A stretch of DNA of 64,000 nt, taken from Bathymodiolus japonicus methanotrophic gill symbiont (GTDB lineage: Bacteria > Pseudomonadota > Gammaproteobacteria > Methylococcales > Methylomonadaceae). The translations under genes and the position numbers were made by a program. The stretch spans positions 62,001 through 126,000 of the forward strand of contig NZ_BLYC01000006.1 of assembly GCF_019721995.1 (NCBI RefSeq). Direction: 5' to 3'. Below, one piece after another: positions 1,950-61,329 of the stretch. How positions within the stretch are numbered: position 1 is the stretch's first letter; every line of letters begins with the position of its first letter. The notes below the pieces were generated by a model. It ran no database searches. It had not been told where the DNA came from and was given only the letters and a program-made list of their open reading frames with translations.

Positions 1950-4478
<2,529 letters not shown>

Positions 4479-5523: not shown

Positions 5524-6624
5524 TTATAAACGCATAGGCATAACGATAAATTTATATTGCTGCTCACTAGGTTCTTCAATAAAACAGCAGCTGGAATTTT
5601 CAGCAATCGTGAGTACTGCCAGCTCCGAATCAAGATTAGCGACCGCATCTAAAATATATTGTGAATTAAATGCAATTGCCAGAGGTTGTCCCTGATACTC
5701 TATCGCTATTTGTTCTTCTGCTTCTTCGTGTTCAGGGTTGTTTGTACTAATCGTTATGGTATTTCCATCGATAACAAATTCAACTCCCTTGAATTTTTCA
5801 TTTGCAAGGATTGATACCCGTGTTAATGCATCTTTTAAAACGTCTTTTTGCACATGTATGGGGCTATTAAATTCCTGTTCAAATACTTTACTAAAATCTG
5901 GATATTTGGAATCCACCAGTTTGGCGGAAAAAATCAGATTATTAATCACCACACGTATATTATTACGTGAAAATTCTACCTGCACTTGCTGCTCTGCATT
6001 ATCTAATAGTCGAACTAATTCTATAACACCTTTACGAGGAATAATGATACGTAACTCAATACCTGTTTCTTGTTCAATGGTATCCTCATAAATTGATAAT
6101 CTATGCCCATCCGATCCAACCAGCTTTAATTGCTGATTAAAAATACTCAACATCAGACCATTAAGGTAATAACGGATATCCTGATTCGCCATACAAAAGG
6201 TTGTTTTATCTAATGCTAGCTTCAGTTGACTCGCTGGCATAGAAAACTGGCACTCCATCACACCCATTTCAAAATCAGGATACTCATCTGCACTTAAGGT
6301 ACTCACTGAAAAACGACTACGACCCGATTTTATTTTTAATTTTCTATCAACCAATTCAAATTTTATATCTGCAGCACTCGGTAACAGCCGACAAATGTCC
6401 AGCAGCTTTCTCGCTGGAATAGTAATGCTTGCTTCTACGTCATTTTCTAAAATTACTTGTGCAACAATTTGTACTTCAAGATCAGTCCCCGTCAATGTCA
6501 GCTGATTTTCTGATAGCTTGAAAAGTACATTGGCAAGAATGGGCATAGTTTGCCTTTTCTCGATAACATTGACGATTTGCTGTAGAGGCGTGAGTAATAG
6601 CTCTCTGTTAATTATAAATTTCAT
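5524..6624 (-). CDS. dnaN: DNA polymerase III beta sliding clamp
   Basis: The processivity clamp of the replicative polymerase. It has 366 residues, the usual length, starting MKFIINRELLLTPLQQ and ending FIVMPMRL; the clamp family typically ends in VxMPMRL. The SDGHRLSIYED motif, part of the peptide-binding pocket, is present. It heads the dnaN-recF-gyrB run. In most relatives dnaA would sit directly upstream, but here that place is taken by an oriC-like spacer and a conserved hypothetical gene. Confidence 0.97.
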   Translation of the reverse strand: MKFIINRELLLTPLQQIVNVIEKRQTMPILANVLFKLSENQLTLTGTDLEVQIVAQVILENDVEASITIPARKLLDICRLLPSAADIKFELVDRKLKIKSGRSRFSVSTLSADEYPDFEMGVMECQFSMPASQLKLALDKTTFCMANQDIRYYLNGLMLSIFNQQLKLVGSDGHRLSIYEDTIEQETGIELRIIIPRKGVIELVRLLDNAEQQVQVEFSRNNIRVVINNLIFSAKLVDSKYPDFSKVFEQEFNSPIHVQKDVLKDALTRVSILANEKFKGVEFVIDGNTITISTNNPEHEEAEEQIAIEYQGQPLAIAFNSQYILDAVANLDSELAVLTIAENSSCCFIEEPSEQQYKFIVMPMRL

Positions 6625-6640
6625 AAAAGAATATATTATT

Positions 6641-6865
6641 TATTATTACTATTAGGCAGGTGTCTATCTGTTGAAAAGTCATTTTATAAGCATAAAATCA
6701 GTATTTTAACCTGTTTTTAAGTCTGTTCCCAAATTAGACAATAGCTGTAGTTAAAATGTGCATATATGAGGAGTTTCAATTCAAACACAGCTAGTGCACA
6801 GGTGCCGGGGATACTAAAACACAGGATTATGCACAGAAAGAGGGGGAGCGGACTGAGGCCCGCTC
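6641..6865. other. Diverged duplicate of the oriC-like spacer, plus REP hairpin
   Basis: This dnaN upstream spacer starts with TATTATTACTATTAG and aligns for roughly 130 bp with the spacer at 8380-8520. It carries only one recognisable DnaA-type box, TTATGCACA at 6827-6835; the position of the perfect box in the other copy reads CTGTTGAAAAG here. A REP-like hairpin, GAGCGG and CCCGCTC, closes it at 6846-6865, next to the following gene's stop. Confidence 0.6.
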
Positions 6866-6872
6866 TATACTA

Positions 6873-8288
6873 TTAACTATTAACAAAACCCAGTAGCTTC
6901 TTCTTAATAATCATCTCAACGATAGATTCCGGTACTTTATTCTCCCAGTCACCACGTCCATTTTTAATATCAGCCAGTACTTCATTTGGGTTGATATGTA
7001 GAACGCTTTCATCAACATTTTCTAGACCAACTAAATAATTATTTTCCAGAACATACTTATACAGGTACTGTAACTTCTTAGGTGCTTTGAAGTTGTAAAC
7101 AGTGATTAATTCATCCTGCTCAGGGGTTTTAAACGGGTAAATATACAGATGCGTATTATCTGGAAACAGCTTGGCAAAGGCTTCCAAAATTCCACCTTCA
7201 AGCCCATGATAATATTCCTCATCAAAAATTAGCTCTAAATTTGATATACCTAAAATCATGCCTATCTGTAATTGAGTATAACGACGGAAATAGGCACGTA
7301 AGCGGAAATAGCGTAGGTAATTGGAAATCATGACCGTATAGCCTTGCGTATTTAGCATATCTACACGTGCCAAAAAATCCGCATCATCAATTTCATCACC
7401 TACTGTTAAACTCGCCATAGTAATTTCGGCCAGCACTAATGTTCTTTCAGCATTAATGTTTTCCATATCATTAAAATGCTGTTGACCACAACGGGTCATA
7501 TCCAGTTGAACTTTAGTTAAAGGAGTGAAGTTACCGCGGATCACCAGGATATTCTTTTTATAAAGTAGTTCACTAGGAACCTGTACTTCACCGCCTGGGC
7601 TAAACATAATCGCATGAGTCAGGTTATGATGCACAAGATGCAAGTTCATTAATCTATTTTCTATCTCCTCAAAATAGGGACCAGAAAAATCTATCATATC
7701 GATCTCTATTCGACACTCCTCTAAATCATCAACTAAAGATTCAATAATTTTTTTAGGTTGGGTGAAAAAACTAAATGCTGAATGAATTAAATTAACTCCA
7801 AGAATTCCCAGAGCTTCTTGTTGTGCACTTCCATCATTATCTAACATGCGCACATGCAGAATAATATTACTGGGTGCAGCACCGGGATAAAGTTGCGCAC
7901 GCAAACCGATCCAGCCGTGACACTCTTTTTTTTGTAAATAACTTTTCGCTGTTACTGTAGCAGCATAAGAAAAAAAGGTTGTATTTTTGGGGCGGGTAGC
8001 AGTAAGAAGTTCGGTGACACCGGTATATTCTTTATCCAGCATTTTCAGTAATCGACTACGGCTGACATAGCGCTTAGTTTCTTCCGCACCATAGATATCA
8101 TCACTTACCTGCATATCATACGCAGACATGGTTTTAGCTATTGTCCCGGCAGCGCCACCCGCACGGAAAAAATTTCTGGCGACTTCCTGGCCCGCTCCAA
8201 TTTCAACAATAGTTCCATACTTACAATTATCAAGGTTTATTTCTAGTGCTTTATGTAAGGTATTATGTTTTTTTTCTCGATTGGTCAT
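6873..8288 (-). CDS. Conserved hypothetical protein (471 aa) near the origin
   Basis: A soluble, evenly composed 471-residue protein without signal peptide or membrane segment. It starts MTNREKKHNTLHKALEINL and has a GAGQEVARNFFRAGGAAGTI stretch near residue 32 that looks like a loop-rich nucleotide or cofactor site. Relatives in proteobacteria and cyanobacteria are, as I recall, sometimes named nicotinate-nucleotide adenylyltransferase, but no HxGH or ISSTxxR motif of that family is visible, so I do not adopt that name. It lies exactly between the two copies of an oriC-like spacer, in the place where dnaA is often found. Function unknown. Confidence 0.85.
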   Translation of the reverse strand: MTNREKKHNTLHKALEINLDNCKYGTIVEIGAGQEVARNFFRAGGAAGTIAKTMSAYDMQVSDDIYGAEETKRYVSRSRLLKMLDKEYTGVTELLTATRPKNTTFFSYAATVTAKSYLQKKECHGWIGLRAQLYPGAAPSNIILHVRMLDNDGSAQQEALGILGVNLIHSAFSFFTQPKKIIESLVDDLEECRIEIDMIDFSGPYFEEIENRLMNLHLVHHNLTHAIMFSPGGEVQVPSELLYKKNILVIRGNFTPLTKVQLDMTRCGQQHFNDMENINAERTLVLAEITMASLTVGDEIDDADFLARVDMLNTQGYTVMISNYLRYFRLRAYFRRYTQLQIGMILGISNLELIFDEEYYHGLEGGILEAFAKLFPDNTHLYIYPFKTPEQDELITVYNFKAPKKLQYLYKYVLENNYLVGLENVDESVLHINPNEVLADIKNGRGDWENKVPESIVEMIIKKKLLGFVNS

Positions 8289-8379
8289 ATAGATAAAAGG
8301 CTGTTTAGTGACTAAAATAATTCAGTGTATAGAATAGCATCCTTAATAATAATAAATAAGAGTATCTTTATATAAAACT

Positions 8380-8574
8380 TATTATTACTATTAGTCTACT
8401 GCCTACTTGTGGATAAGTCATTTTTAGGATTAAAAATCATGTTGTTAACTTATCTGTAAGTTTGTTATAAAGTTTAGGCTAATTTGTAGAAAGACTGTGC
8501 TAAAAATGAAGGGGGATTTTTATCTACAAAACATAAACATCTTTGCAGTAGCCTAACCCACAGACTTATCCACA
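8380..8574. other. Candidate replication origin spacer (oriC-like)
   Basis: An AT-rich 296-bp spacer (8289-8584) without a gene. It has two perfect DnaA boxes in opposite orientation: TGTGGATAA at 8408-8416 (TTATCCACA on the minus strand) and TTATCCACA at 8566-8574. A one-mismatch box, TTATCTACA, lies at 8520-8528. AT-rich runs such as TTATTATTACTATTAG could serve as unwinding region. Neighbouring dnaN, recF and gyrB and the nearby parS-like sites support an origin. GC skew could not be computed. Confidence 0.65.
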
Positions 8575-8584
8575 ACACATCACA

Positions 8585-9194
8585 TTATAATAATGGCAAT
8601 AAGTAAGCTGCAACGTGATTGGCTATGATGGGCTGGGCTTTTTCATTGGGATGTAAGCCATCATTTTGCATTTGCGATTTATCCAGAGCGATCCCATTAA
8701 GTATAAAAGGTACAACTGAGATATTCTGTTCCCTGGCAACTTTTTCATAGCTACTGTAAAACATATCGGTATAGCGCTTTCCATAATTACTGGGGATGCG
8801 CATACTCAGTAGTAAAACTTCTGCCCCGGACTTTTTTGCCTCTGCAATTATGGTGGATAAATTTTTCTGCATGCTGATTAATGACATGCCTCTTAAGCCA
8901 TCGTTAGCACCAAGTTCAAGTAGCAGAATTTCAGGTTTGTACAATTTTAATAGTTGCGGCAAACGTGCTAAGCCACCGGCTGAGGTATCACCACTAATAC
9001 TAGCGTTATAAATAGTATATTCAGCGTGACTAGCATTTAATTTTTGTTGCAGTAATGTGACCCAGCCATGTTGTGCTTCAAATCCATGGTTAGCACTGAT
9101 ACTATCTCCTAGGACTAGAATTGACTTTGCCTGAGCTAATGTAGGAAAAAAAACCAGATATTAATATCATCCAGACCAATAAAATATTACGCAT
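8585..9194 (-). pseudogene. tesA: Multifunctional acyl-CoA thioesterase/lysophospholipase TesA, frameshifted in the signal peptide
   Basis: A periplasmic SGNH/GDSL hydrolase acting on thioesters and lysophospholipids. The mature part is intact: SILVLGDSISANHGF with the nucleophile Ser, GDTSAGG, LELGANDGLRG (block III) and DGLHPNEKAQ with the catalytic Asp/His. The signal peptide begins at ATG 9194 (MRNILLVWMILISGFF), but a run of eight A (9146-9153 on the plus strand) puts it one base out of frame with the mature protein; seven would be in frame. It may be a true pseudogene, a slippery contingency tract or a sequencing error. It is divergent from ybbA, as in E. coli. Confidence 0.85.
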
Positions 9195-9282: not shown

Positions 9283-9602
9283 GCCCATCTTCGTCACTAT
9301 TGATGATGTAGTTGTTATAAATCAATTGGTTGAAATTTTAAAAAGTAGCCAGTTGGCACTACAGATTTTGTGTTTTTGTATAAAACGTTGGATTTTTTAG
9401 AGTATTTTTGTCGCATGTAAATTACACTCAAATAATGATGATTTTTTTGACAAAAGTCAATGAATTTATCGACAAAAATAATATAAATGGCACTACAAAA
9501 CTTTCAAAAAAAACACCATTGATTTTAAAGAGAATTTTTCGACAAAAAATCGCTTAAACCGATGAATCAATGGCTTAGAAAGATGAAAGTGACGAAGATG
9601 GG
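9283..9602. mobile_element. MITE D, 320 bp, 3-bp target duplication
   Basis: It begins GCCCATCTTCGTCACT and ends AGTGACGAAGATGGG, an inverted terminal repeat of about 15 bp, flanked by TTA on both sides (9280-9282 and 9603-9605). Removing it with one TTA restores the ybbA frame (GRLTILSS). It has no ORF. The interior is AT-rich with an imperfect direct repeat around GGCACTACA. No parent transposase is in the window. Confidence 0.8.
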
Positions 9603-9622: not shown

Positions 9623-9917
9623 CGCTGAAAATCCTGGAAACGGAGCTTTAGCGAAGTGAAGATTTTTAGTCCGCGATAGCCGTAGGGCCGTTGTTTTGTC
9701 GGAGTCTGAGCGTTAGCGAAGGTGGAGACAAAATAAAAGGCCATCCGACACGGCGTCAAGTCATTTGGAGCCTATGTTCCGACCCCTTGTTGGGTCGGGA
9801 CGAGGTGACGAGGACGAATCGGGGCCGCCGGAGGCATAAGTGGTCGCGTTAAGTTTTTGCTGCTTGCTTGGGCTGGGATGCCCAAAACAAGCTTTCGCAA
9901 AAATAGCGACTCCCCGA
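9623..9917 (+). mobile_element. Element A, copy 1 (295 bp) in ybbA
   Basis: Starts CGCTGAAAATCC and ends GACTCCCCGA. Its left flank ...CATCAGT and right flank TGGCTTTAG join to SSVGFRI of YbbA without any duplicated or lost base. The 3' half folds into one long nested stem: TCGGGG (9819) with CCCCGA, GTCGC (9843) with GCGAC, TTTTTGC (9854) with GCAAAAA, GCTTG with CAAGC, and TTGGGC with GCCCAA. Confidence 0.9.
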
Positions 9918-9989
9918 TGGCTTTAGAATCAAACCCGCCGAAAGTCTTGCAATTATGGGGCATCGGGCTCAGGTAAATCAACCTTACTC

Positions 9990-10269
9990 CGCTGAAAATC
10001 ATGGAAACGTAGCTTAGCGAAGTGGTGATTTTTAGTCCCTGATAGGCGACAGGGCAATTCGCTGATTCGACGTGTGCTAGCAGCACGCGAGAGGAGCAAG
10101 AATTGCATTCCGAATAGCCGTCCAGCCAGTGAGGTAGTAATGACGAAGCGGCTTTTGTGCGTAGTCGTTGCGGACGCAGGGCGTTCAGGGCATCTCCCAT
10201 CCGCTGCGTAGGTGAACGAATTATGGCGACAGGAGTCCCGGAATTTCGTGAGGTAGCATGGAGCGCCTG
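9990..10269 (+). mobile_element. Element B, copy 1 (280 bp) in ybbA
   Basis: Starts CGCTGAAAATCATGG like element A but ends ATGGAGCGCCTG (consensus ATGGCGCGCCTG). Flanks ...TTACTC and AGCCTACTG join to TLLSLLAGLD of YbbA with no target duplication. The internal ATG at 10258 reads out in frame into the ybbA 3' part. Confidence 0.9.
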
Positions 10270-36903: not shown

Positions 36904-38335
36904 TATAGTTTCTCAGATAAATAATTTCCAAATTTGGAGCGCTTAAACTTAGGCGGTAACAACGAAATCTTCCCGCAATTTTTGCATAACACAAATCACT
37001 TTACTGGCATCATGCATATAAGTGTTAAAAGTTTGCACAACTGAATCATGAAGATCTTCAAAAGTTTTAAAATACTTCATATGAGTCGAATCGCGTTTCG
37101 TATTTTTCCATAATTTCTCAATCGGATTAAAATCCGGCGAGAACGCAGGGAGACGTTCTACTGTCAAACGATCTACATTAGCTAACTTAAATTCCTTAAT
37201 AACACCGCTTCCATGATACGGGGCACCATCTTCAATTAGAATAATCTTGCCTTTATAATAAGCCAGCAATTGTGTTAAAAACTCAACATAGCTTTCACCA
37301 TTAAAACGCCCAGATGTTTCAGCGTGTTGTAATATCATTGGCTTATAACTCTCGATTAAGACGTTGTCGGCAATAGAATATATCGCTTCCATAAAAAGCT
37401 TCTGTGTTGGATATTTCTCATTTTTTAAGCTTTTAAGAATAGCTAAAAATTCTTGAGGCAGCCCAGCTTCTTTTAAAAGTCTAAGTGACTTTGGTTTTAT
37501 CTCATAAGCCAATGATTCTCGGTATTGAAAACTCCCTCCTTCGAGTTCGATCGTACCAAACATTTTCAACCCTTTTCGAATCCCTGATGTTTTCACTGTG
37601 GGTTGCTCTCCTATTGGAGCCCAGGTTCGTGCCAATGAACCCCACATAGCAAATGACACCTCATCACCGAATAAAACGACACTCTTTTCTTCTACCGCCT
37701 TTTCCATAATGGCAGGCAATGTTTCTTCCAGCCACGTTTTTCTTTCAAGCTCGTACTTTTCTTCTTCTTGGCGATCAGTCACAAAACGAGCTTTTTGATA
37801 ACTGAAGCCCAGTTTTTTCATTAGGCTTGATAAATAGTTCAAGTTATAACGAACTTCAAATTTTAACCAAATAAGCTCGGCAATCATCGCAGTATTCCAT
37901 ATTCCACAATGAAATCCATTGTCTTCTGGGCCTTTCTTTATCAACTCAACCAATTTATTTTTCTGGTCTTTAGTTAACTTTGACTTCCGACCACGTCCTT
38001 GATAGTGTTGCCCTATTAACCAACCGACACCTTTATGCATGAATGTTTTCAGCCAATTTATAATGGTTTTTTCACAGACTCCCATTAGGCGTGCTATTTC
38101 TTTGATTCCCATGCATTCACTGAACCAGAGTAGAGCTTGAGTTAATCGATATAAACAAATATTACTTAGCTTGAGAGCTGTCGCCATATTTTTTTTTAGT
38201 CGGTCTACAATTGACTTTGAAAAAGTGAGGGATACCATTTTTGACTGTTTCCGTTAGTGTTGGGACGAAAATTATAAGCCAGTTTCCCCTCTGTCGTTTT
38301 TGTTTGTTCGGAAATTAATTTTCTGAAAGTCTATA
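36904..38335 (-). mobile_element. IS630-family element, copy 1
   Basis: Flanked by TA on both sides, with ends TAGTTTCTCAGATAAAT and ATTTTCTGAAAGTCTA. It is inserted in MITE C and carries one intact transposase. Confidence 0.92.
36949..38238 (-). CDS. IS630-family transposase
   Basis: 429 residues. An N-terminal helix-turn-helix (MGIKEIARLMGVCEKTIINWLK) is followed by a winged part. The DDE catalytic core has VVLFGDEVSFAMWG (first Asp), IILIEDGAPYHGS (second Asp) and LPAFSPDFNPIEKLWKNTK (Glu), the tell-tale IS630/Tc1 motif. It is intact and nearly identical to 47879-49168. Confidence 0.95.
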   Translation of the reverse strand: MVSLTFSKSIVDRLKKNMATALKLSNICLYRLTQALLWFSECMGIKEIARLMGVCEKTIINWLKTFMHKGVGWLIGQHYQGRGRKSKLTKDQKNKLVELIKKGPEDNGFHCGIWNTAMIAELIWLKFEVRYNLNYLSSLMKKLGFSYQKARFVTDRQEEEKYELERKTWLEETLPAIMEKAVEEKSVVLFGDEVSFAMWGSLARTWAPIGEQPTVKTSGIRKGLKMFGTIELEGGSFQYRESLAYEIKPKSLRLLKEAGLPQEFLAILKSLKNEKYPTQKLFMEAIYSIADNVLIESYKPMILQHAETSGRFNGESYVEFLTQLLAYYKGKIILIEDGAPYHGSGVIKEFKLANVDRLTVERLPAFSPDFNPIEKLWKNTKRDSTHMKYFKTFEDLHDSVVQTFNTYMHDASKVICVMQKLREDFVVTA

Positions 38336-40707: not shown

Positions 40708-42377
40708 TAACTACTCAGCGAAGCTGAGTAGTTCAATGAAATTATAAAGCAAATTCAGGTAACTTTCCCTCAAAGACCAAGGTCATTGCCTGAGTTGCAC
40801 TTAGACCTTGTTTACGGCACGTTGATAAATACCCTCTAACACGACAAAATATCTCTGCACCCTTGGTACTACGAAAGCAGCCGGATATTTTCTGTTGAAC
40901 CTTGGTCATCCGAATCGAATTTTCTGCGGCATTATTGGTAAATGGCACCCAGGTATTTGTCATGAAGCGCAAGACATCCTCTTCATAATTAATCAGCCTT
41001 TCCAGTAAGTTTCTAGCTTTACTGCGTTTTATTCGCTCCCGTTTTACTTCTTTAGGCTTATCGGGTGGTGGGCATTCGATCTCCGCTTTGCCAAGTAATT
41101 CTCTGTATTGTACCTTCCATTTTTCTGCTTCTTTATGTAGTAGCATGCCACCTGCTTCATTGACGGCATCATTCATTTTTTCAAGTAGTCGTTTCATTTC
41201 AAGCGCCCACTCCTGTTTATCCTGCTCCCAGGCGCGCGTTAATTCCCTCAAATGATGTGCATTACAAAGCGAATGAGTACAATCATATTTATAGTAGGGC
41301 TTCCAATGATCATGACATAAAATCCCATGAAAATGGGGTAAAATACCAATGTCATTCATTGCCTCTGTGCCACGTTTGGCATGGGGAAAGAAGTGTGTCC
41401 ACTGAACATTGGAGGCCCCATGTAGCCAATGGCGCTTACCATTAATATTAATGCCTGTTTCATCCGCATGAATGCACGCTGATTCGACTAAGTGTTCTTT
41501 ACTGATAGTTTCAAACCCAGCCAACTTCTCATAGGCCAGTTCATTGAAATTATAGATAGAGCCTTCACTAATCGGCATACCTAATTGATCAGCGAAATAC
41601 TCCTGTATTCGGTTGTAGGGCAATAACTGATATTGCGAAAGATAAACCACATGGGCTTTTATCCCATTACCATATTGCGCAGCCTTAGTAACCTCATCTG
41701 GAAAAGGAGCGATAAAACACTGACCTTTTCCATTTATCAACCGTTGCGCCTGGTATTCTGTCACTACCCTTGAGATATCAATATCGAATACCTGGCGTGT
41801 TTCAAAGCCATCTGCCGTGTATCGCCCTTTTGGCAAGGTACGGCGATCAATGGTAATGATCTCGATTTCATCCGGGTCATCTATTTTTTGGAGTGTCGTG
41901 CCGACATGCGATTTTTGTCCGCCAGAAGGCTTATCTGATTTTTTTCGATTCCCTTTTTTACGGTTGGGATCACTTGCAGGTGGTTTACTGCTATTTTTGC
42001 TGTTCAGTGTCACTCGATTGAGTAATACCGTGACTAATAATAGAATCACTTCCAGTGCTGATTTTAGCGCAGGCGATATATCACGCTCAGTTTCAAGTAA
42101 CTGTTTGGCATGACTGATTGCGGAATCAACATCGATGAAGTCTATTTTCAAAGGGTAACCTGTATTGCTTTAAGGACAGGCTTATTATCTCATGGGTTTT
42201 AAATCCCGAATTTTCCTTGTTTTAAGCGATTGTAAGGCGAATAAAAAAGTTCTTCGAGGTCGTAGATGTTTAAGGGGACATTTTGTGATGACTATAGCGA
42301 TAGAAGCAATAAAGCGTGGATTAATCGACTGTTGGGCAGTTTACTAAAAATCACAAAAACCAGACTAAAACCCTGTC
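40708..42377 (-). mobile_element. IS66-family element, copy 1, right end lost
   Basis: Begins GTAACTACTCAGCGAAGCTG; these first bases form a perfect hairpin (AACTACTCAGC-GAA-GCTGAGTAGTT). It carries only the large transposase, with no small TnpA/TnpB. It diverges from copy 2 after CCCTGTCA at 42377, where a MITE starts. Confidence 0.88.
40742..42151 (-). CDS. tnpC: IS66-family transposase (TnpC type)
   Basis: 469 residues. An N-terminal leucine-rich helix (LLLVTVLLNRVTLN) and a NSSKPPASDPNRKKGNRKK linker are typical of IS66 TnpC. The DDE core has CIHADETGININGKRHWLH (Asp), GILCHDHWKPYYKY (Asp) and NNAAENSIRMTKVQQK (Glu). The C-terminal tail SATQAMTLVFEG is typical. Intact. Confidence 0.95.
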   Translation of the reverse strand: MKIDFIDVDSAISHAKQLLETERDISPALKSALEVILLLVTVLLNRVTLNSKNSSKPPASDPNRKKGNRKKSDKPSGGQKSHVGTTLQKIDDPDEIEIITIDRRTLPKGRYTADGFETRQVFDIDISRVVTEYQAQRLINGKGQCFIAPFPDEVTKAAQYGNGIKAHVVYLSQYQLLPYNRIQEYFADQLGMPISEGSIYNFNELAYEKLAGFETISKEHLVESACIHADETGININGKRHWLHGASNVQWTHFFPHAKRGTEAMNDIGILPHFHGILCHDHWKPYYKYDCTHSLCNAHHLRELTRAWEQDKQEWALEMKRLLEKMNDAVNEAGGMLLHKEAEKWKVQYRELLGKAEIECPPPDKPKEVKRERIKRSKARNLLERLINYEEDVLRFMTNTWVPFTNNAAENSIRMTKVQQKISGCFRSTKGAEIFCRVRGYLSTCRKQGLSATQAMTLVFEGKLPEFAL

Positions 42378-47781: not shown

Positions 47782-49213
47782 TATAGACTTTCAGAAAATT
47801 AATTTCCGAACAAACAAAAACGACAGAGGGGAAACTGGCTTATAATTTTCGTCCCAACACTAACGGAAACAGTCAAAAATGGTATCCCTCACTTTTTCAA
47901 AGTCAATTGTAGACCGACTAAAAAAAAATATGGCGACAGCTCTCAAGCTAAGTAATATTCGTTTATATCGATTAACTCAAGCTCTACTCTGGTTCAGTGA
48001 ATGCATGGGAATCAAAGAAATAGCACGCCTAATGGGAGTCTGTGAAAAAACCATTATAAATTGGCTGAAAACATTCATGCATAAAGGTGTCGGTTGGTTA
48101 ATAGGGCAACACTATCAAGGACGTGGTCGGAAGTCAAAGTTAACTAAAGACCAGAAAAATAAATTGGTTGAGTTGATAAAGAAAGGCCCAGAAGACAATG
48201 GATTTCATTGTGGAATATGGAATACTGCGATGATTGCCGAGCTTATTTGGTTAAAATTTGAAGTTCGTTATAACTTGAACTACTTATCAAGCCTAATGAA
48301 AAAACTGGGCTTCAGTTATCAAAAAGCTCGTTTTGTGACTGATCGCCAAGAAGAAGAAAAGTACGAGCTTGAAAGAAAAACGTGGCTGGAAGAAACATTG
48401 CCTGCCATTATGGAAAAGGCGGTAGAAGAAAAGAGTGTCGTTTTATTCGGTGATGAGGTGTCATTTGCTATGTGGGGTTCATTGGCACGAACCTGGGCTC
48501 CAATAGGAGAGCAACCCACAGTGAAAACATCAGGGATTCGAAAAGGGTTGAAAATGTTTGGTACGATCGAACTCGAAGGAGGGAGTTTTCAATACCGAGA
48601 ATCATTGGCTTATGAGATAAAACCAAAGTCACTTAGACTTTTAAAAGAAGCTGGGCTGCCTCAAGAATTTTTAGCTATTCTTAAAAGCTTAAAAAATGAG
48701 AAATATCCAACACAGAAGCTTTTTATGGAAGCGATATATTCTATTGCCGACAACGTCTTAATCGAGAGTTATAAGCCAATGATATTACAACACGCTGAAA
48801 CATCTGGGCGTTTTAATGGTGAAAGCTATGTTGAGTTTTTAACACAATTGCTGGCTTATTATAAAGGCAAGATTATTCTAATTGAAGATGGTGCCCCGTA
48901 TCATGGAAGCGGTGTTATTAAGGAATTTAAGTTAGCTAATGTAGATCGTTTGACAGTAGAACGTCTCCCTGCGTTCTCGCCGGATTTTAATCCGATTGAG
49001 AAATTATGGAAAAATACGAAACGCGATTCGACTCATATGAAGTATTTTAAAACTTTTGAAGATCTTCATGATTCAGTTGTGCAAACTTTTAACACTTATA
49101 TGCATGATGCCAGTAAAGTGATTTGTGTTATGCAAAAATTGCGGGAAGATTTCGTTGTTACCGCCTAAGTTTAAGCGCTCCAAATTTGGAAATTATTTAT
49201 CTGAGAAACTATA
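47782..49213 (+). mobile_element. IS630-family element, copy 2
   Basis: Same ends as copy 1 in opposite orientation, flanked by TA. It separates an antitoxin remnant (49214) from the IS30 and mazF debris. Confidence 0.92.
47879..49168 (+). CDS. IS630-family transposase
   Basis: 429 residues, differing from 36949-38238 by apparently one residue (SNIRLY versus SNICLY). Helix-turn-helix and the three DDE motifs are intact. Near identity between copies implies recent movement. Confidence 0.95.
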   Translation: MVSLTFSKSIVDRLKKNMATALKLSNIRLYRLTQALLWFSECMGIKEIARLMGVCEKTIINWLKTFMHKGVGWLIGQHYQGRGRKSKLTKDQKNKLVELIKKGPEDNGFHCGIWNTAMIAELIWLKFEVRYNLNYLSSLMKKLGFSYQKARFVTDRQEEEKYELERKTWLEETLPAIMEKAVEEKSVVLFGDEVSFAMWGSLARTWAPIGEQPTVKTSGIRKGLKMFGTIELEGGSFQYRESLAYEIKPKSLRLLKEAGLPQEFLAILKSLKNEKYPTQKLFMEAIYSIADNVLIESYKPMILQHAETSGRFNGESYVEFLTQLLAYYKGKIILIEDGAPYHGSGVIKEFKLANVDRLTVERLPAFSPDFNPIEKLWKNTKRDSTHMKYFKTFEDLHDSVVQTFNTYMHDASKVICVMQKLREDFVVTA

Positions 49214-50190: not shown

Positions 50191-53100
50191 TTAGAATTTT
50201 CCGTAATAGCCTTCTTTTAAGGCATCAAACAAATTAGCTGCACTGTGCATTTCGCCGTCGTATTCAATTTCTTCATTCCCTTTTAGTTCCAGCACATGTC
50301 CATCTTCCAGTGTAAATTGATAGGTGGTATTTTCCAGGTCTGATTCTTTCACCAGTACTCCCTGAAACGCTTCAGGATTAAAACGGAATGTTGTACAGCC
50401 TTTTAAGCCCTGATCATATGCATACATATAAATATCCTTAAAATCTTCATAAGGATAGTCGGTAGGAACATTCGCTGTCTTGGAAATGGAGGAGTCTATC
50501 CATACTTGTGCTGCCGCTTGTACATCCACATGTTGCCTGGGAGTAATCGCATCGGCAGTGATAAAATAATCGGGTAATTGTTCATCTGCTTTTTCGCTAT
50601 AGGGCATGGCTTTATCATTAACCAGTGCGCGATAGGCAAGTAATTCAAAGGAAAATACATCGACTTTTTCTTTGCTCTTCTTACCTTCACGAATCACATT
50701 ACGCGAATAATGATGTGCAAAGCTGGGCTCGATTCCATTGCTGGCATTATTAGCCAGGGAAAGTGAAATAGTACCCGTTGGTGCAATAGAGCTATGATGC
50801 GTAAAACGTGCACCCTGTTCAGCAAGTTCAGCTATCAGTTTGGGATCTTCCTGAGCGAGTTGTTGCATATAGCGACTATATTTGGCATGTAACACTTTGC
50901 CGCTCACCACATCACCCACTTTATATCCATCGGCTACCATTTCCGGGCGTTTATGTAACATAGCGCCAGTTACGCTGTAATCCTTTTCCAGAGCGGGCGC
51001 TGTGCCTTTTTCTTTAGCCAATGCGAGCGCTTCTTTCCAGCCTTCTACCGCCAGAACTTTAGTGACTTCACTGGTAAAGTCTAGCGAATTAGCATCGCCA
51101 TATTGCATGCCCAGCATGGTGAGAGTTGAGCCTAATCCGAGATAGCCCATGCCATGTCTACGTTTAGAGACGATTTCTTCGCGTTGTTTTGCTAATGGCA
51201 GGCCATTAATTTCAACTACATTATCCAGCATGCGGGTAAATATGCGGATGGTTTTACGGTAATTATTCCAGTTAAACGATACATTTTTAGTAAATGGCTT
51301 TTCGATAAACCGGGTTAGGTTGATTGAGCCTAGAAGGCATGAACCATAAGGCGGTAAGGGTTGCTCACCACAATTGTGTGCATGCAGGCCATTGGCATCA
51401 AACGTATTGATACCAGGAACCTGAATATCAAAGACATCTTCAGTGCCATCTGCAACGATAGCCTCAATTGTTGCAGTAAAACGTTCACGATTTAGATTAC
51501 GCTTATAGCTGGATAAGACATTTTTAAGTTTTATTGACTTAGTGATGTCGGTAAAATTGATTAGTTTCTGGAATGAAACCAAATTTTCGCCGCTTATGAC
51601 TAATTCATGTTGTGCTTTAATTTGATAGTCCGCACTCTCCCCTTTTCCATTAGGTAGTTGCTTGATTCCGGCAGGTCGACGGTTACGATAAATACTGGCA
51701 TTAATTCCCAGGCGTAACAACATGCGTTGTACTGCTTCAAGGCGGGGTAAGTCAGACTGGGCTAAGCGTACACTCACGCCTTTTTCTTGCGTATCCTGCA
51801 CACTGCCATCGGCATCAAAAAATCCTTGCAAGAAGCCTTTATAAAAATTACTTGATGCTTCTTCCATTTTCGCTGTAATTGCTTTATTTCCAGCTGATAG
51901 TCCTAATTCTTCAGCAAAATATTTGAGTCCTGAAAAGCTGAATCTACATTCATTTCTGCCAGCAATTTCAGACCAACCTTTAAAGTCACTCCGCGTTGTG
52001 AATTCCTGGGAGGCAGCAAGCACCTTGTCCATAATTGCATTAACGCCAGCATTGATGCAATCAAAATTGTCATTTGCAGCTTTAGCTGATTTCCATACAG
52101 ATAAAACTGCCTTATCCTGTGTTAAAGTACCATCGCCAACTAGTAAGCCTATTAAATACCCCAGGTTTTCGTTATAGAGTCCATGCCATGAGTTTTCGGC
52201 ATGATGGTTGTTTAATAAGACTTGATCCCCTGATATTAAATCACCTGCTGCGCACCATTGTGTTTCTTGTTTGTAGTGGCTCTGATTGGTGACCTTGCGC
52301 ACTTGGTGGTCTGCAGTTAAACGTAAATTAAAGCCTTCCTTAGTTATTAATTTAACGACTTTTTTAGTCGCTGTTTTAAAAAAACCTTGTTTCCCTGACT
52401 GGTATAATTTGCCATCGACCAGAACATTAATCTGTTGCCCTAAAAGTGAACTAACCTGCCTCGCACCGTTTTCAGTTTGTACCCATGTGTCAGCTGTAAC
52501 ACATGGATTGGTCGCCCGGATGTCCTCACAAAACCAGTTATTATTCATTTCATTGACTTTATCAATCAGAATAAAGCCTGGCTCAGCATAGTCGTAGGTT
52601 GAAGACATAATAATGTCCCATAAACGACGCGCGGGCATTGTTTTAGCGACTTTACAGGCTACCAAGCCATCCGTATTTTCAACATAGCCTTCCGTATGCG
52701 GTAAATCACGCCAGATAATTAAGCCATCATCAGCTACTGCCAGATTGTCTTCATCCCATTCTTTTTGCATCACGGGGAAAGAAAGTCGCCAAGGTTTGTC
52801 TTCTTTGACTGCTTCAACGAATTCCGCTGTTATTAATAATGATAAGTTAAACTGACGTAAACGCCCGTCTTCTCGTTTAGCACGAATAAAGTCAACCACA
52901 TCAGGATGGCCGATATCAAAGGTCGCCATTTGTGCACCGCGTCGCCCACCCGCAGAGGACACGGTAAAACACATTTTGTCGTAGATATCCATAAAGGATA
53001 AAGGCCCTGACGTATATGCACCGGCTCCTGAGACATAAGCATCTTTAGGTCTAAGAGTGGAAAATTCATAGCCGATTCCACAGCCTGCTTTTAAGGTAAG

Positions 53101-53472
53101 CCCTGCTTCATGCACCTTACCAAGAATATCATCCATCGAATCGAGGATCGATCCAGAAACTGTACAGTTAATTGTTGAGGTGGCCGGTTTATGTTCGCGC
53201 GCTCCAGCGTTTGAAATAATACGACCTGCCGGAATCACCCCCTGACGTAATGCCCATAAGAATTCTTTATAATATTTATCCTGTTTTGCCTTACCTTTTT
53301 CGACTCTGGATAAGGCTGTGGCTACGCGCTGGTATGTTTCATCAATACTGCCATCGATGGCAACACCTGATTTTGTTTTTAAACGATATTTTGTATCCCA
53401 TATATCTGCGGACGCATCTTGTAGGGGGATATCGATAATGGCATCCAAATCAGTGCTTAACTTTGTTGTCAT
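50191..53472 (-). CDS. nrdJa: Adenosylcobalamin-dependent ribonucleotide reductase NrdJa with intein
   Basis: Catalytic subunit of class II (B12-dependent) ribonucleotide reductase, giving oxygen-independent dNTP synthesis. 1093 codons, of which residues 324-700 are an intein, leaving a 716-residue enzyme. Exteins show INCTVSGS (redox Cys), KAGCGIGYEFSTLRP, SSAGGRRGAQMATFDIGHPD, the thiyl-radical motif NP|CGEQPLPPYGSCLLGSINL (split by the intein) and APTGTISLSLANNASNGIEPSF. It is co-transcribed with nrdJb and needs vitamin B12; no cobalamin riboswitch was recognised upstream. Confidence 0.95.
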   Translation of the reverse strand: MTTKLSTDLDAIIDIPLQDASADIWDTKYRLKTKSGVAIDGSIDETYQRVATALSRVEKGKAKQDKYYKEFLWALRQGVIPAGRIISNAGAREHKPATSTINCTVSGSILDSMDDILGKVHEAGLTLKAGCGIGYEFSTLRPKDAYVSGAGAYTSGPLSFMDIYDKMCFTVSSAGGRRGAQMATFDIGHPDVVDFIRAKREDGRLRQFNLSLLITAEFVEAVKEDKPWRLSFPVMQKEWDEDNLAVADDGLIIWRDLPHTEGYVENTDGLVACKVAKTMPARRLWDIIMSSTYDYAEPGFILIDKVNEMNNNWFCEDIRATNPCVTADTWVQTENGARQVSSLLGQQINVLVDGKLYQSGKQGFFKTATKKVVKLITKEGFNLRLTADHQVRKVTNQSHYKQETQWCAAGDLISGDQVLLNNHHAENSWHGLYNENLGYLIGLLVGDGTLTQDKAVLSVWKSAKAANDNFDCINAGVNAIMDKVLAASQEFTTRSDFKGWSEIAGRNECRFSFSGLKYFAEELGLSAGNKAITAKMEEASSNFYKGFLQGFFDADGSVQDTQEKGVSVRLAQSDLPRLEAVQRMLLRLGINASIYRNRRPAGIKQLPNGKGESADYQIKAQHELVISGENLVSFQKLINFTDITKSIKLKNVLSSYKRNLNRERFTATIEAIVADGTEDVFDIQVPGINTFDANGLHAHNCGEQPLPPYGSCLLGSINLTRFIEKPFTKNVSFNWNNYRKTIRIFTRMLDNVVEINGLPLAKQREEIVSKRRHGMGYLGLGSTLTMLGMQYGDANSLDFTSEVTKVLAVEGWKEALALAKEKGTAPALEKDYSVTGAMLHKRPEMVADGYKVGDVVSGKVLHAKYSRYMQQLAQEDPKLIAELAEQGARFTHHSSIAPTGTISLSLANNASNGIEPSFAHHYSRNVIREGKKSKEKVDVFSFELLAYRALVNDKAMPYSEKADEQLPDYFITADAITPRQHVDVQAAAQVWIDSSISKTANVPTDYPYEDFKDIYMYAYDQGLKGCTTFRFNPEAFQGVLVKESDLENTTYQFTLEDGHVLELKGNEEIEYDGEMHSAANLFDALKEGYYGKF
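51373..52503 (-). other. Bifunctional intein in NrdJa (377 aa, LAGLIDADG endonuclease)
   Basis: Begins Cys324 (CVTADTWVQTENG, block A), with block B NLRLTADHQV. Two LAGLIDADG helices are LGYLIGLLVGDGTL and YKGFLQGFFDADGS, with their acidic residues in place. It ends VFDIQVPGINTF and LHAHN followed by extein Cys (blocks F/G with the His-Asn end). Splicing would join NP to CGEQPLPPYG. All splice residues are present, so it should be active. Confidence 0.95.
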
Positions 53473-59919: not shown

Positions 59920-61329
59920 TTATAAAGCAAATTCAGGTAACTTTCCCTCAAAGACCAAGGTCATTGCCTGAGTTGCACTTAGACCTTGTTTACGGCACGT
60001 TGATAAATACCCTCTGACACGACAAAATATCTCTGCACCCTTGGTGCTACGAAAGCAGCCGGATATTTTCTGTTGAACCTTGGTCATCCGAATCGAATTT
60101 TCTGCGGCATTATTGGTAAATGGCACCCAGGTATTTGTCATGAAGCGCAAGACATCCTCTTCATAATTAATCAGCCTTTCCAGTAAGTTTCTAGCTTTAC
60201 TGCGTTTTATTCGCTCCCGTTTTACTTCTTTAGGCTTATCGGGTGGTGGGCATTCGATCTCCGCTTTGCCAAGTAATTCTCTGTATTGTACCTTCCATTT
60301 TTCTGCTTCTTTATGTAGTAGCATGCCACCTGCTTCATTGACGGCATCATTCATTTTTTCAAGTAGTCGTTTCATTTCAAGCGCCCACTCCTGTTTATCC
60401 TGCTCCCAGGCGCGCGTTAATTCCCTCAAATGATGTGCATTACAAAGCGAATGAGTACAATCATATTTATAGTAGGGCTTCCAATGATCATGACATAAAA
60501 TCCCATGAAAATGGGGTAAAATACCAATGTCATTCATTGCCTCTGTGCCACGTTTGGCATGGGGAAAGAAGTGTGTCCACTGAACATTGGAGGCCCCATG
60601 TAGCCAATGGCGCTTACCATTAATATTAATGCCTGTTTCATCCGCATGAATGCACGCTGATTCGACTAAGTGTTCTTTACTGATAGTTTCAAACCCAGCC
60701 AACTTCTCATAGGCCAGTTCATTGAAATTATAGATAGAGCCTTCACTAATCGGCATACCTAATTGATCAGCGAAATACTCCTGTATTCGGTTGTAGGGCA
60801 ATAACTGATATTGCGAAAGATAAACCACATGGGCTTTTATCCCATTACCATATTGCGCAGCCTTAGTAACCTCATCTGGAAAAGGAGCGATAAAACACTG
60901 ACCTTTTCCATTTATCAACCGTTGCGCCTGGTATTCTGTCACTACCCTTGAGATATCAATATCGAATACCTGGCGTGTTTCAAAGCCATCTGCCGTGTAT
61001 CGCCCTTTTGGCAAGGTACGGCGATCAATGGTAATGATCTCGATTTCATCCGGGTCATCTATTTTTTGAAGTGTCGTGCCGACATGCGATTTTTGTCCGC
61101 CAGAAGGCTTATCTGATTTTTTTCGATTCCCTTTTTTACGGTTGGGGTCACTTGCAGGTGGTTTACTGCTATTTTTGCTGTTCAGTGTCACTCGATTGAG
61201 TAATACCGTGACTAATAATAGAATCACTTCCAGTGCTGATTTTAGCGCAGGCGATATATCACGCTCAGTTTCAAGTAACTGTTTGGCATGACTGATTGCG
61301 GAATCAACATCGATGAAGTCTATTTTCAA
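59920..61329 (-). CDS. tnpC: IS66-family transposase (TnpC type)
   Basis: 469 residues, apparently identical in protein sequence to 40742-42151, with a few silent base differences. The Asp, Asp and Glu motifs are intact. The two copies are recent duplicates. Confidence 0.95.
   Translation of the reverse strand: MKIDFIDVDSAISHAKQLLETERDISPALKSALEVILLLVTVLLNRVTLNSKNSSKPPASDPNRKKGNRKKSDKPSGGQKSHVGTTLQKIDDPDEIEIITIDRRTLPKGRYTADGFETRQVFDIDISRVVTEYQAQRLINGKGQCFIAPFPDEVTKAAQYGNGIKAHVVYLSQYQLLPYNRIQEYFADQLGMPISEGSIYNFNELAYEKLAGFETISKEHLVESACIHADETGININGKRHWLHGASNVQWTHFFPHAKRGTEAMNDIGILPHFHGILCHDHWKPYYKYDCTHSLCNAHHLRELTRAWEQDKQEWALEMKRLLEKMNDAVNEAGGMLLHKEAEKWKVQYRELLGKAEIECPPPDKPKEVKRERIKRSKARNLLERLINYEEDVLRFMTNTWVPFTNNAAENSIRMTKVQQKISGCFRSTKGAEIFCRVRGYLSTCRKQGLSATQAMTLVFEGKLPEFAL

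Follow-up and report, generated by a model that had tools for sequence, protein, structure and literature searches.

Two intergenic spacers that flank a gene for a 471-residue protein in the methanotrophic gill symbiont of Bathymodiolus japonicus are homologous, duplicated oriC units, their likeness lying beyond what chance would give. The unit upstream of the gene (copy 2) is probably the core of the working origin, the unit upstream of dnaN (copy 1) being a weakened paralogue of it. The window, by which is meant the whole 64,000-nucleotide stretch analysed, corresponds to C6:62001-126000 on contig C6 (195 kb) of a 4.97-Mb genome in 109 contigs (G000); coordinates are those of the window unless a contig, locus or other genome is named. 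The bacterium is taken to belong to Methyloprofundus, since its nearest relatives with a name are MAGs of that genus and methane symbionts of Bathymodiolus. Along the minus strand the order is a GDSL-lipase fragment, copy 2, the 471-residue gene, copy 1, dnaN, recF, gyrB, lgt and thyA, the last three named by eye from their translations. The dnaA gene lies away from dnaN, at C6:40863-42209, ca 26-28 kb from both copies, and its neighbours are a sugar transferase and an SDR gene, the latter named by likeness to the SDR of a scanned relative.

Both spacers start with TATTATTACTATTAG (6641-6655 and 8380-8394), as the preliminary description had seen, and its expectation that they would align better than shuffled sequence is borne out: the local score is 66, against a mean of 20.1 (sd 2.7, maximum 40) for 5000 dinucleotide shuffles, none of which reached it. 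Under a gentler scoring, run without shuffles, the copies align end to end over ~205 bp. They are, moreover, colinear, with exactly 195 bp from trio array to distal DnaA box in each and a gap of 13 nt between proximal box and trios in both, at a core identity of 55%. Perfect DnaA boxes are found in copy 2 only, again as first described, those at 8408 and 8566 being exact whereas the boxes of copy 1 carry one or two mismatches. The features of the locus are given in Table 1, in which R1 is a sequence model built from 32 units, copies 1 and 2 among them.

Table 1. Features of the origin-like locus, in window coordinates
Feature	Position	Strand	Basis or remark
Three exact parS sites, recF-gyrB junction	4382..4478	.	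~4 kb from copy 2
dnaN	5524..6624	-	downstream of copy 1; TIGR00663, 320 bits
Copy 1, dnaN-proximal oriC-like unit, weakened	6641..6835	-	R1 match C6:68614-68835, 108.8 bits; alignment with copy 2
DnaA-trio array, copy 1	6641..6655	-	sequence; pattern kept in 7/14 species
Degenerate proximal box, copy 1: TGTTGAAAA, that is TTTTCAACA on the minus strand; two mismatches	6669..6677	-	
Distal box, copy 1: TTATGCACA, one mismatch	6827..6835	+	
471-residue gene	6873..8288	-	CinA-C-like (7-175) and NMN/NaMN-adenylyltransferase-like (244-468) fold; predicted
Copy 2, full oriC unit upstream of the 471-residue gene, likely origin core	8380..8574	-	R1 match C6:70358-70574, 108 bits
DnaA-trio array CTA-ATA-GTA-ATA-ATA, copy 2, 13 nt from proximal box	8380..8394	-	sequence
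Proximal perfect DnaA box, copy 2: TTATCCACA on the minus strand	8408..8416	-	exact match
One-mismatch DnaA box, copy 2: TTATCTACA	8520..8528	+	sequence
Distal perfect DnaA box, copy 2: TTATCCACA	8566..8574	+	exact match

The two exact boxes of copy 2 form, with the one-mismatch box, a high-affinity cluster within the unit. Of the five exact DnaA boxes on the whole 195-kb contig two belong to copy 2, and the densest 300-bp stretch of boxes on that contig (at up to one mismatch) is formed by the surroundings of copy 2, with four boxes, one of which (8679) falls outside the unit. Beside the proximal box stand five NAN trios at a distance within the 10-13 bp expected of such arrays. In PMC8287927, the box-gap-trio unwinding system is given a trio consensus of 3'-GAT-5', a gap peaking at 10-13 bp and at least three NAN triplets, and the layout of copy 2 agrees with this description. 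By analogy with that system, DnaA would fill the distal and proximal boxes of copy 2 and then cross the gap onto the DnaA-trios, such that the AT-rich DNA beyond them would be opened. Copy 1 has no high-affinity box beside its trios and, on its sequence, is classed as oriC-like, not as a working oriC.

Strand asymmetry and parS sites

The cumulative GC skew, a check put forward in the preliminary description, does reach its minimum on contig C6 at this locus, at position 9297, ~0.7 kb beyond copy 2. The skew of this contig cannot tell the copies apart, because they are separated by only 1.7 kb (cumulative values of -1529 at copy 1 and -1575 at copy 2). In the two-contig genome G008, on the other hand, skew separates the gene locus from dnaN, since dnaN there lies ~10 kb from the gene: the units occupy 4,076,710-4,079,034, dnaN is at 4,088,204 and dnaA at 97-1437, the last ~309 kb from the units if the 4.39-Mb contig is circular. 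Skews over 2 kb run from -0.08 to -0.32 across 4.060-4.078 Mb, are near zero at 4.078 Mb, run from +0.09 to +0.24 across 4.080-4.092 Mb and stay positive to 4.100 Mb, with a local minimum at 4,079,830. In other words, the sign changes where the gene and its units lie, and neither dnaN nor dnaA coincides with the switch. Forty sampled stretches of 6-20 kb in the same genome fit a pattern of two switches, this one and another near 2 Mb, save for a near-zero value (-0.004) at 1.25 Mb. A local minimum at the equivalent locus is also seen in G009, at 233,358, close to a unit at 233,475, with dnaA 16 kb off. G004 is ambiguous: a second unit pair lies 26-30 kb from this locus, the skew is flat over the interval that separates them (85-110 kb), and the minimum for the whole contig (18,122) does not coincide with any unit.

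The parS sites were called by comparison with the parS consensus. Beyond the cluster at the recF-gyrB junction, the genome contains no other exact site and one site with a single mismatch, on contig C10. Exact sites occur in 10 of the 12 relatives searched; in most cases for which recF and gyrB are both available, they lie at the junction of the two. From skew and parS context, therefore, the gene-upstream unit is the best candidate for the origin, at which replication would be expected to fire.

It might be supposed instead that one unit, or both, would serve not as an origin but as a DnaA-controlled promoter or a site that titrates DnaA. At the sites examined, the units do adjoin, or sit just upstream of, genes (the 471-residue gene, dnaN, and genes for an AAA ATPase and a thymidine phosphorylase), and the part of copy 1 that survives trio loss resembles a promoter by eye. 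Such a role is, however, at odds with the trios and the 13-nt gap, which belong to an unwinding module (PMC8287927), with the skew switches at the locus in G000, G008 and G009 and with the parS cluster close by. We hold this explanation to be quite improbable; for copy 1 alone it could apply.

The unit pair across Methyloprofundus

Eighteen members of the genus were searched, G000 included, and 16 carry the 471-residue gene. An R1 unit stands upstream of the gene in all 16, the nearest at 50-84 bp from it, and a unit or relic stands downstream in 15, of which nine are strong (one inverted) and six are weak relics, opposite-strand half matches not being counted in the flank table. More than one upstream unit is present in five of the 16; G014 has three upstream and one downstream, and G008 has two direct units upstream and an inverted one downstream (L132 18816-19034, which is G008:C1:4078816-4079034). 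Recombination between the inverted and direct units of G008 could flip the gene. The two members without the gene, G002 and G012, gave no R1 match, and in G002 the region may be missing, because a dnaN match is also absent there.

Across 14 species for which both spacers were available, copy-2 regions contain 21 exact DnaA boxes against 5 in copy-1 regions (paired Wilcoxon p = 0.005, shared ancestry ignored) and 26 against 14 boxes at one mismatch (paired Wilcoxon p = 0.03, again ignoring shared ancestry), the copy-1 spacers being 222-605 bp long as compared with 300 bp for copy 2. The trio pattern persists at copy 2 in 14 of 14 species and at copy 1 in seven; G009 was scored as trio-less at copy 1, yet a divergent trio-like run is present there. 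G005 and G013 lie outside this count, their dnaN spacers being absent from the spacer list; copy 1 of G005 keeps its trios, and that of G013 has no trio. The proximal box is TTATCCACA in 14 of the 16 copy-2 units, and the two exceptions, G014 and G016, keep a perfect proximal box in a unit farther upstream. At copy 1, by comparison, the two-mismatch TTTTCAACA stands in this place in all seven trio-bearing units of the count and in G005, a constancy which may reflect a kept function rather than decay. That both spacers were once origins, one of the two histories first proposed, is plausible on these features, given that the gap, the trios and the two-mismatch box are all still present at copy 1 in 7 of 14 species and in G005.

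Comparison with relatives, also suggested at the outset, gave a divided answer as regards alignment: copy 1 and copy 2 align better than all 500 shuffles in five of 14 species (the present one, G014, G010, G006 and G003), and show weak or no excess in the rest, which are chiefly those with a decayed copy 1. Units are also found at a further site, four Methyloprofundus genomes having a unit pair beside a thymidine-phosphorylase gene. In G004 and G013 (L209 9741-13577 and L211 6958-11159) another gene lies between the units of this pair, encoding PAS and GGDEF domains in G004/L209, the sole copy scanned; in L212 and L217 the two units are just ~0.5-0.6 kb apart.

The separate identity of the two copies is apparent in a unit-core tree built without coding ends, in which the eight dnaN-side (copy-1) units included cluster together (0.999). 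A second clade (0.84) unites 20 of 21 copy-2-type (gene-upstream) units with one stray G019 unit and excludes the third unit of G014 and the units of the thymidine-phosphorylase site. Since copy-1 and copy-2 units form separate clades, the pair predates the species of the genus. Mean core identity is 0.55 between copy-1 and copy-2-type units and 0.50-0.51 between either and units of other genera, figures which faintly suggest that the duplication took place on the genus's own stem. The duplication would thus have come before the species of Methyloprofundus diverged, and the CinA-C/NMN-adenylyltransferase gene would have come between the copies, dnaA now being ~26-28 kb away. Copy 1 sits upstream of dnaN, where relatives have the dnaA-dnaN spacer, and as a weakened paralogue it is perhaps now mainly the upstream region of dnaN.

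Three more specific derivations were considered and set aside. Copy 1 grouped with the dnaA-dnaN units of other genera in a first unit tree (0.87), as an orthologue would; the grouping vanished once the dnaA and dnaN coding ends were removed, and the ancestral status of copy 1 rests, therefore, on position. Copy 2 was considered as a piece of the rpmH-dnaA spacer, but 10 of 11 such spacers from other genera have no DnaA box within one mismatch, G023 alone having one. The outer ends of the units might be read as leftovers from the 3' end of dnaA and the 5' end of dnaN, and those of G048 are suggestive in this respect; the reading is not adopted, because similar letters also occur in second-site units.

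Units in the wider family and relation to known origins

In a family sample of 111 genomes, drawn evenly from a larger group, an R1 unit (E<=1e-10) is present in 88, two or more units in 61 and one in 27; outside the genus, 53 of 80 have two or more. The 61 include G024 and G135, whose near-equal matches on separate contigs are possible assembly duplicates. An HMM related to R1 gave 308 forward matches in the loci examined, overlapping loci being counted repeatedly, and none in the reversed loci. Weak R1 matches of ~24 bits on many contigs of G000 were set aside as probable repeat-element ends.

Seventeen family genomes outside the genus gave a dnaN match, and in 16 of them (all but G044) dnaA adjoins dnaN. 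An R1 unit lies in the spacer of 14 of the 16, the matches in G024 and G045 being weak, and the spacers of G041 and G046 have none. In these units the DnaA boxes precede CTAATAGTAATAATA or a sequence close to it. Layouts include tandem pairs at ~0.3-0.7 kb start to start, units on both sides of dnaA (G049; G023, one inverted) and a second site flanked by AAA-ATPase and SDR genes, which lies at a distance of 9-30 kb from the dnaA-dnaN unit in six genomes (G043, G047, G022, G134, G119 and G106). We take this ATPase to be MoxR-like; against NCBIfam it gave only a sub-cutoff magnesium-chelatase match. Where there is a second site, the skew minimum falls near it in G043, G047 and G022 (the two sites of G022 differing little) and ~3 kb off it in G106; in G119 the minimum is near the dnaA-dnaN unit, in G134 between both sites and in G122 at neither. 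From one site to the other the skew is often nearly flat. As a separate observation, the only unit of G041 (L213 7432-7624) has a dense DnaA-box cluster and lies ~41 kb from dnaA, the local skew minimum being elsewhere.

In a tree of dnaA and dnaN the genus is one clade and the tandem-bearing G019 and G044, as well as G048, are placed elsewhere; duplications, therefore, recur or are old. The other history first proposed, that the origin was duplicated together with insertion of the 471-residue gene, is not supported in that form, since relatives without the gene at this place also have tandem or paired units and since five of the 16 gene-bearing genus members have two or three units upstream of it. 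Judged from these sequences, unit duplication does not need the gene. In G019, G031 and G037 the gene is on a different contig from dnaN, with no unit within 350 bp upstream.

The gene product itself gave no match in Pfam, NCBIfam or PHROG searches. Its structural model (pLDDT 88.6) matches NadD in Foldseek (E 9.6e-7) and, by VIA-align, the CinA C-terminal fold over residues ~7-175 (Z about 16) and NMN/NaMN adenylyltransferases over residues 244-468 (Z 17.0, rmsd 3.4 over 199 residues), on which basis the predicted protein likely has a role in NAD recycling; no tie to replication was found. Its homologues at 41-49% identity are mostly from other phyla.

The position of the gene between direct copies would also result if a circular minichromosome carrying oriC and the gene had recombined into the chromosomal oriC, and the additional gene between the two units in G004 and G013 is in keeping with such an event. 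Tandem units without a gene between them, in G019 and G048, speak against it, as does the lack of any match to the gene in the plasmid collection; moreover, there is no trace of recent integration, the copies being only 55% identical in core. We consider this history very improbable.

Bipartite origins in which a gene, usually dnaA, acts as the spacer are already known (PMC4285127), and those of Bacillus subtilis and Helicobacter pylori share with the present locus two DnaA-box clusters split by a ~1.4 kb gene, but here the gene is not dnaA and the parts are duplicates, both with trios. Were the two units to act jointly in this manner, with the 471-residue gene as spacer, retention of the pair across the genus would be accounted for, as would the two or more units in 61 of the 88 family genomes that have any. 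This is, however, hard to reconcile with the absence of the trio pattern from copy 1 in half of the 14 species, with the lack of an R1 match near dnaN in G008 and G001, with each unit being a complete copy and not a complementary half, and with a spacing of unit pairs in relatives that ranges from ~0.3 kb to tens of kb. Joint action is accordingly thought unlikely, and copy 2 as the working core, with copy 1 weakened, is preferred.

Bacterial chromosomes are held to use one origin, and in this regard the locus may show how bacterial origins duplicate and move; how origin and dnaA come apart is a further point of interest. A broader and rather doubtful proposition is that the chromosomes of this family are naturally of a multi-unit-origin type, in which full oriC units duplicate locally or tens of kb away and coexist through speciation, such that cells may initiate at several and the origin relocates through steps of duplication, shared use and decay; on this view the window would represent a stage with one copy failing. 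The family offers graded intermediates (tandem, separated, inverted and decayed), some in genomes of few contigs, and therefore origin number and origin-dnaA separation are approachable by ordinary replication profiling.

With bacterial oriC possessing the basal unwinding system copy 2 shares the perfect box, the 13-nt gap and the five NAN trios; the difference is that here there are paralogous copies, four of them around the gene in G014. Putative double origins were catalogued by Gao in 2015 (PMC4403523), who also discusses two replicating elements of Pseudomonas aeruginosa, only one of which is essential, and states that evidence of a chromosome with two functional origins was then lacking. 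Common to those cases and the present one are two origin-like regions per chromosome, one possibly unused, whereas here the copies are homologous, recur in genus and family, decay by degrees and are accompanied by extra tandem or inverted copies (compare PMC4403523). Within the literature collection searched there was nothing relevant on replication origins in Methyloprofundus, Methylomonas or methanotrophs, and nothing joining Methyloprofundus and oriC. What is new here is the occurrence of paralogous oriC units around a gene other than dnaA, in a family where multiple units are common.

Other features of the window

The GDSL lipase gene that adjoins copy 2 (8585-9190) is apparently interrupted near its start, two stop codons being present in this stretch. 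Farther on, a repeat-like element at 9650-10260 appears, by eye, to sit within the first part of an ABC-transporter ATPase gene, and a similar stretch is seen again, also by eye, near 11.0-11.3 kb. A ribonucleotide-reductase-like ORF at 50191-53472 seemingly contains an intein-like insert, as read by eye from its translation. The window is rich in mobile elements, with near-identical transposase ORFs at 36949-38238, 47879-49168, 40742-42151 and 59920-61329.
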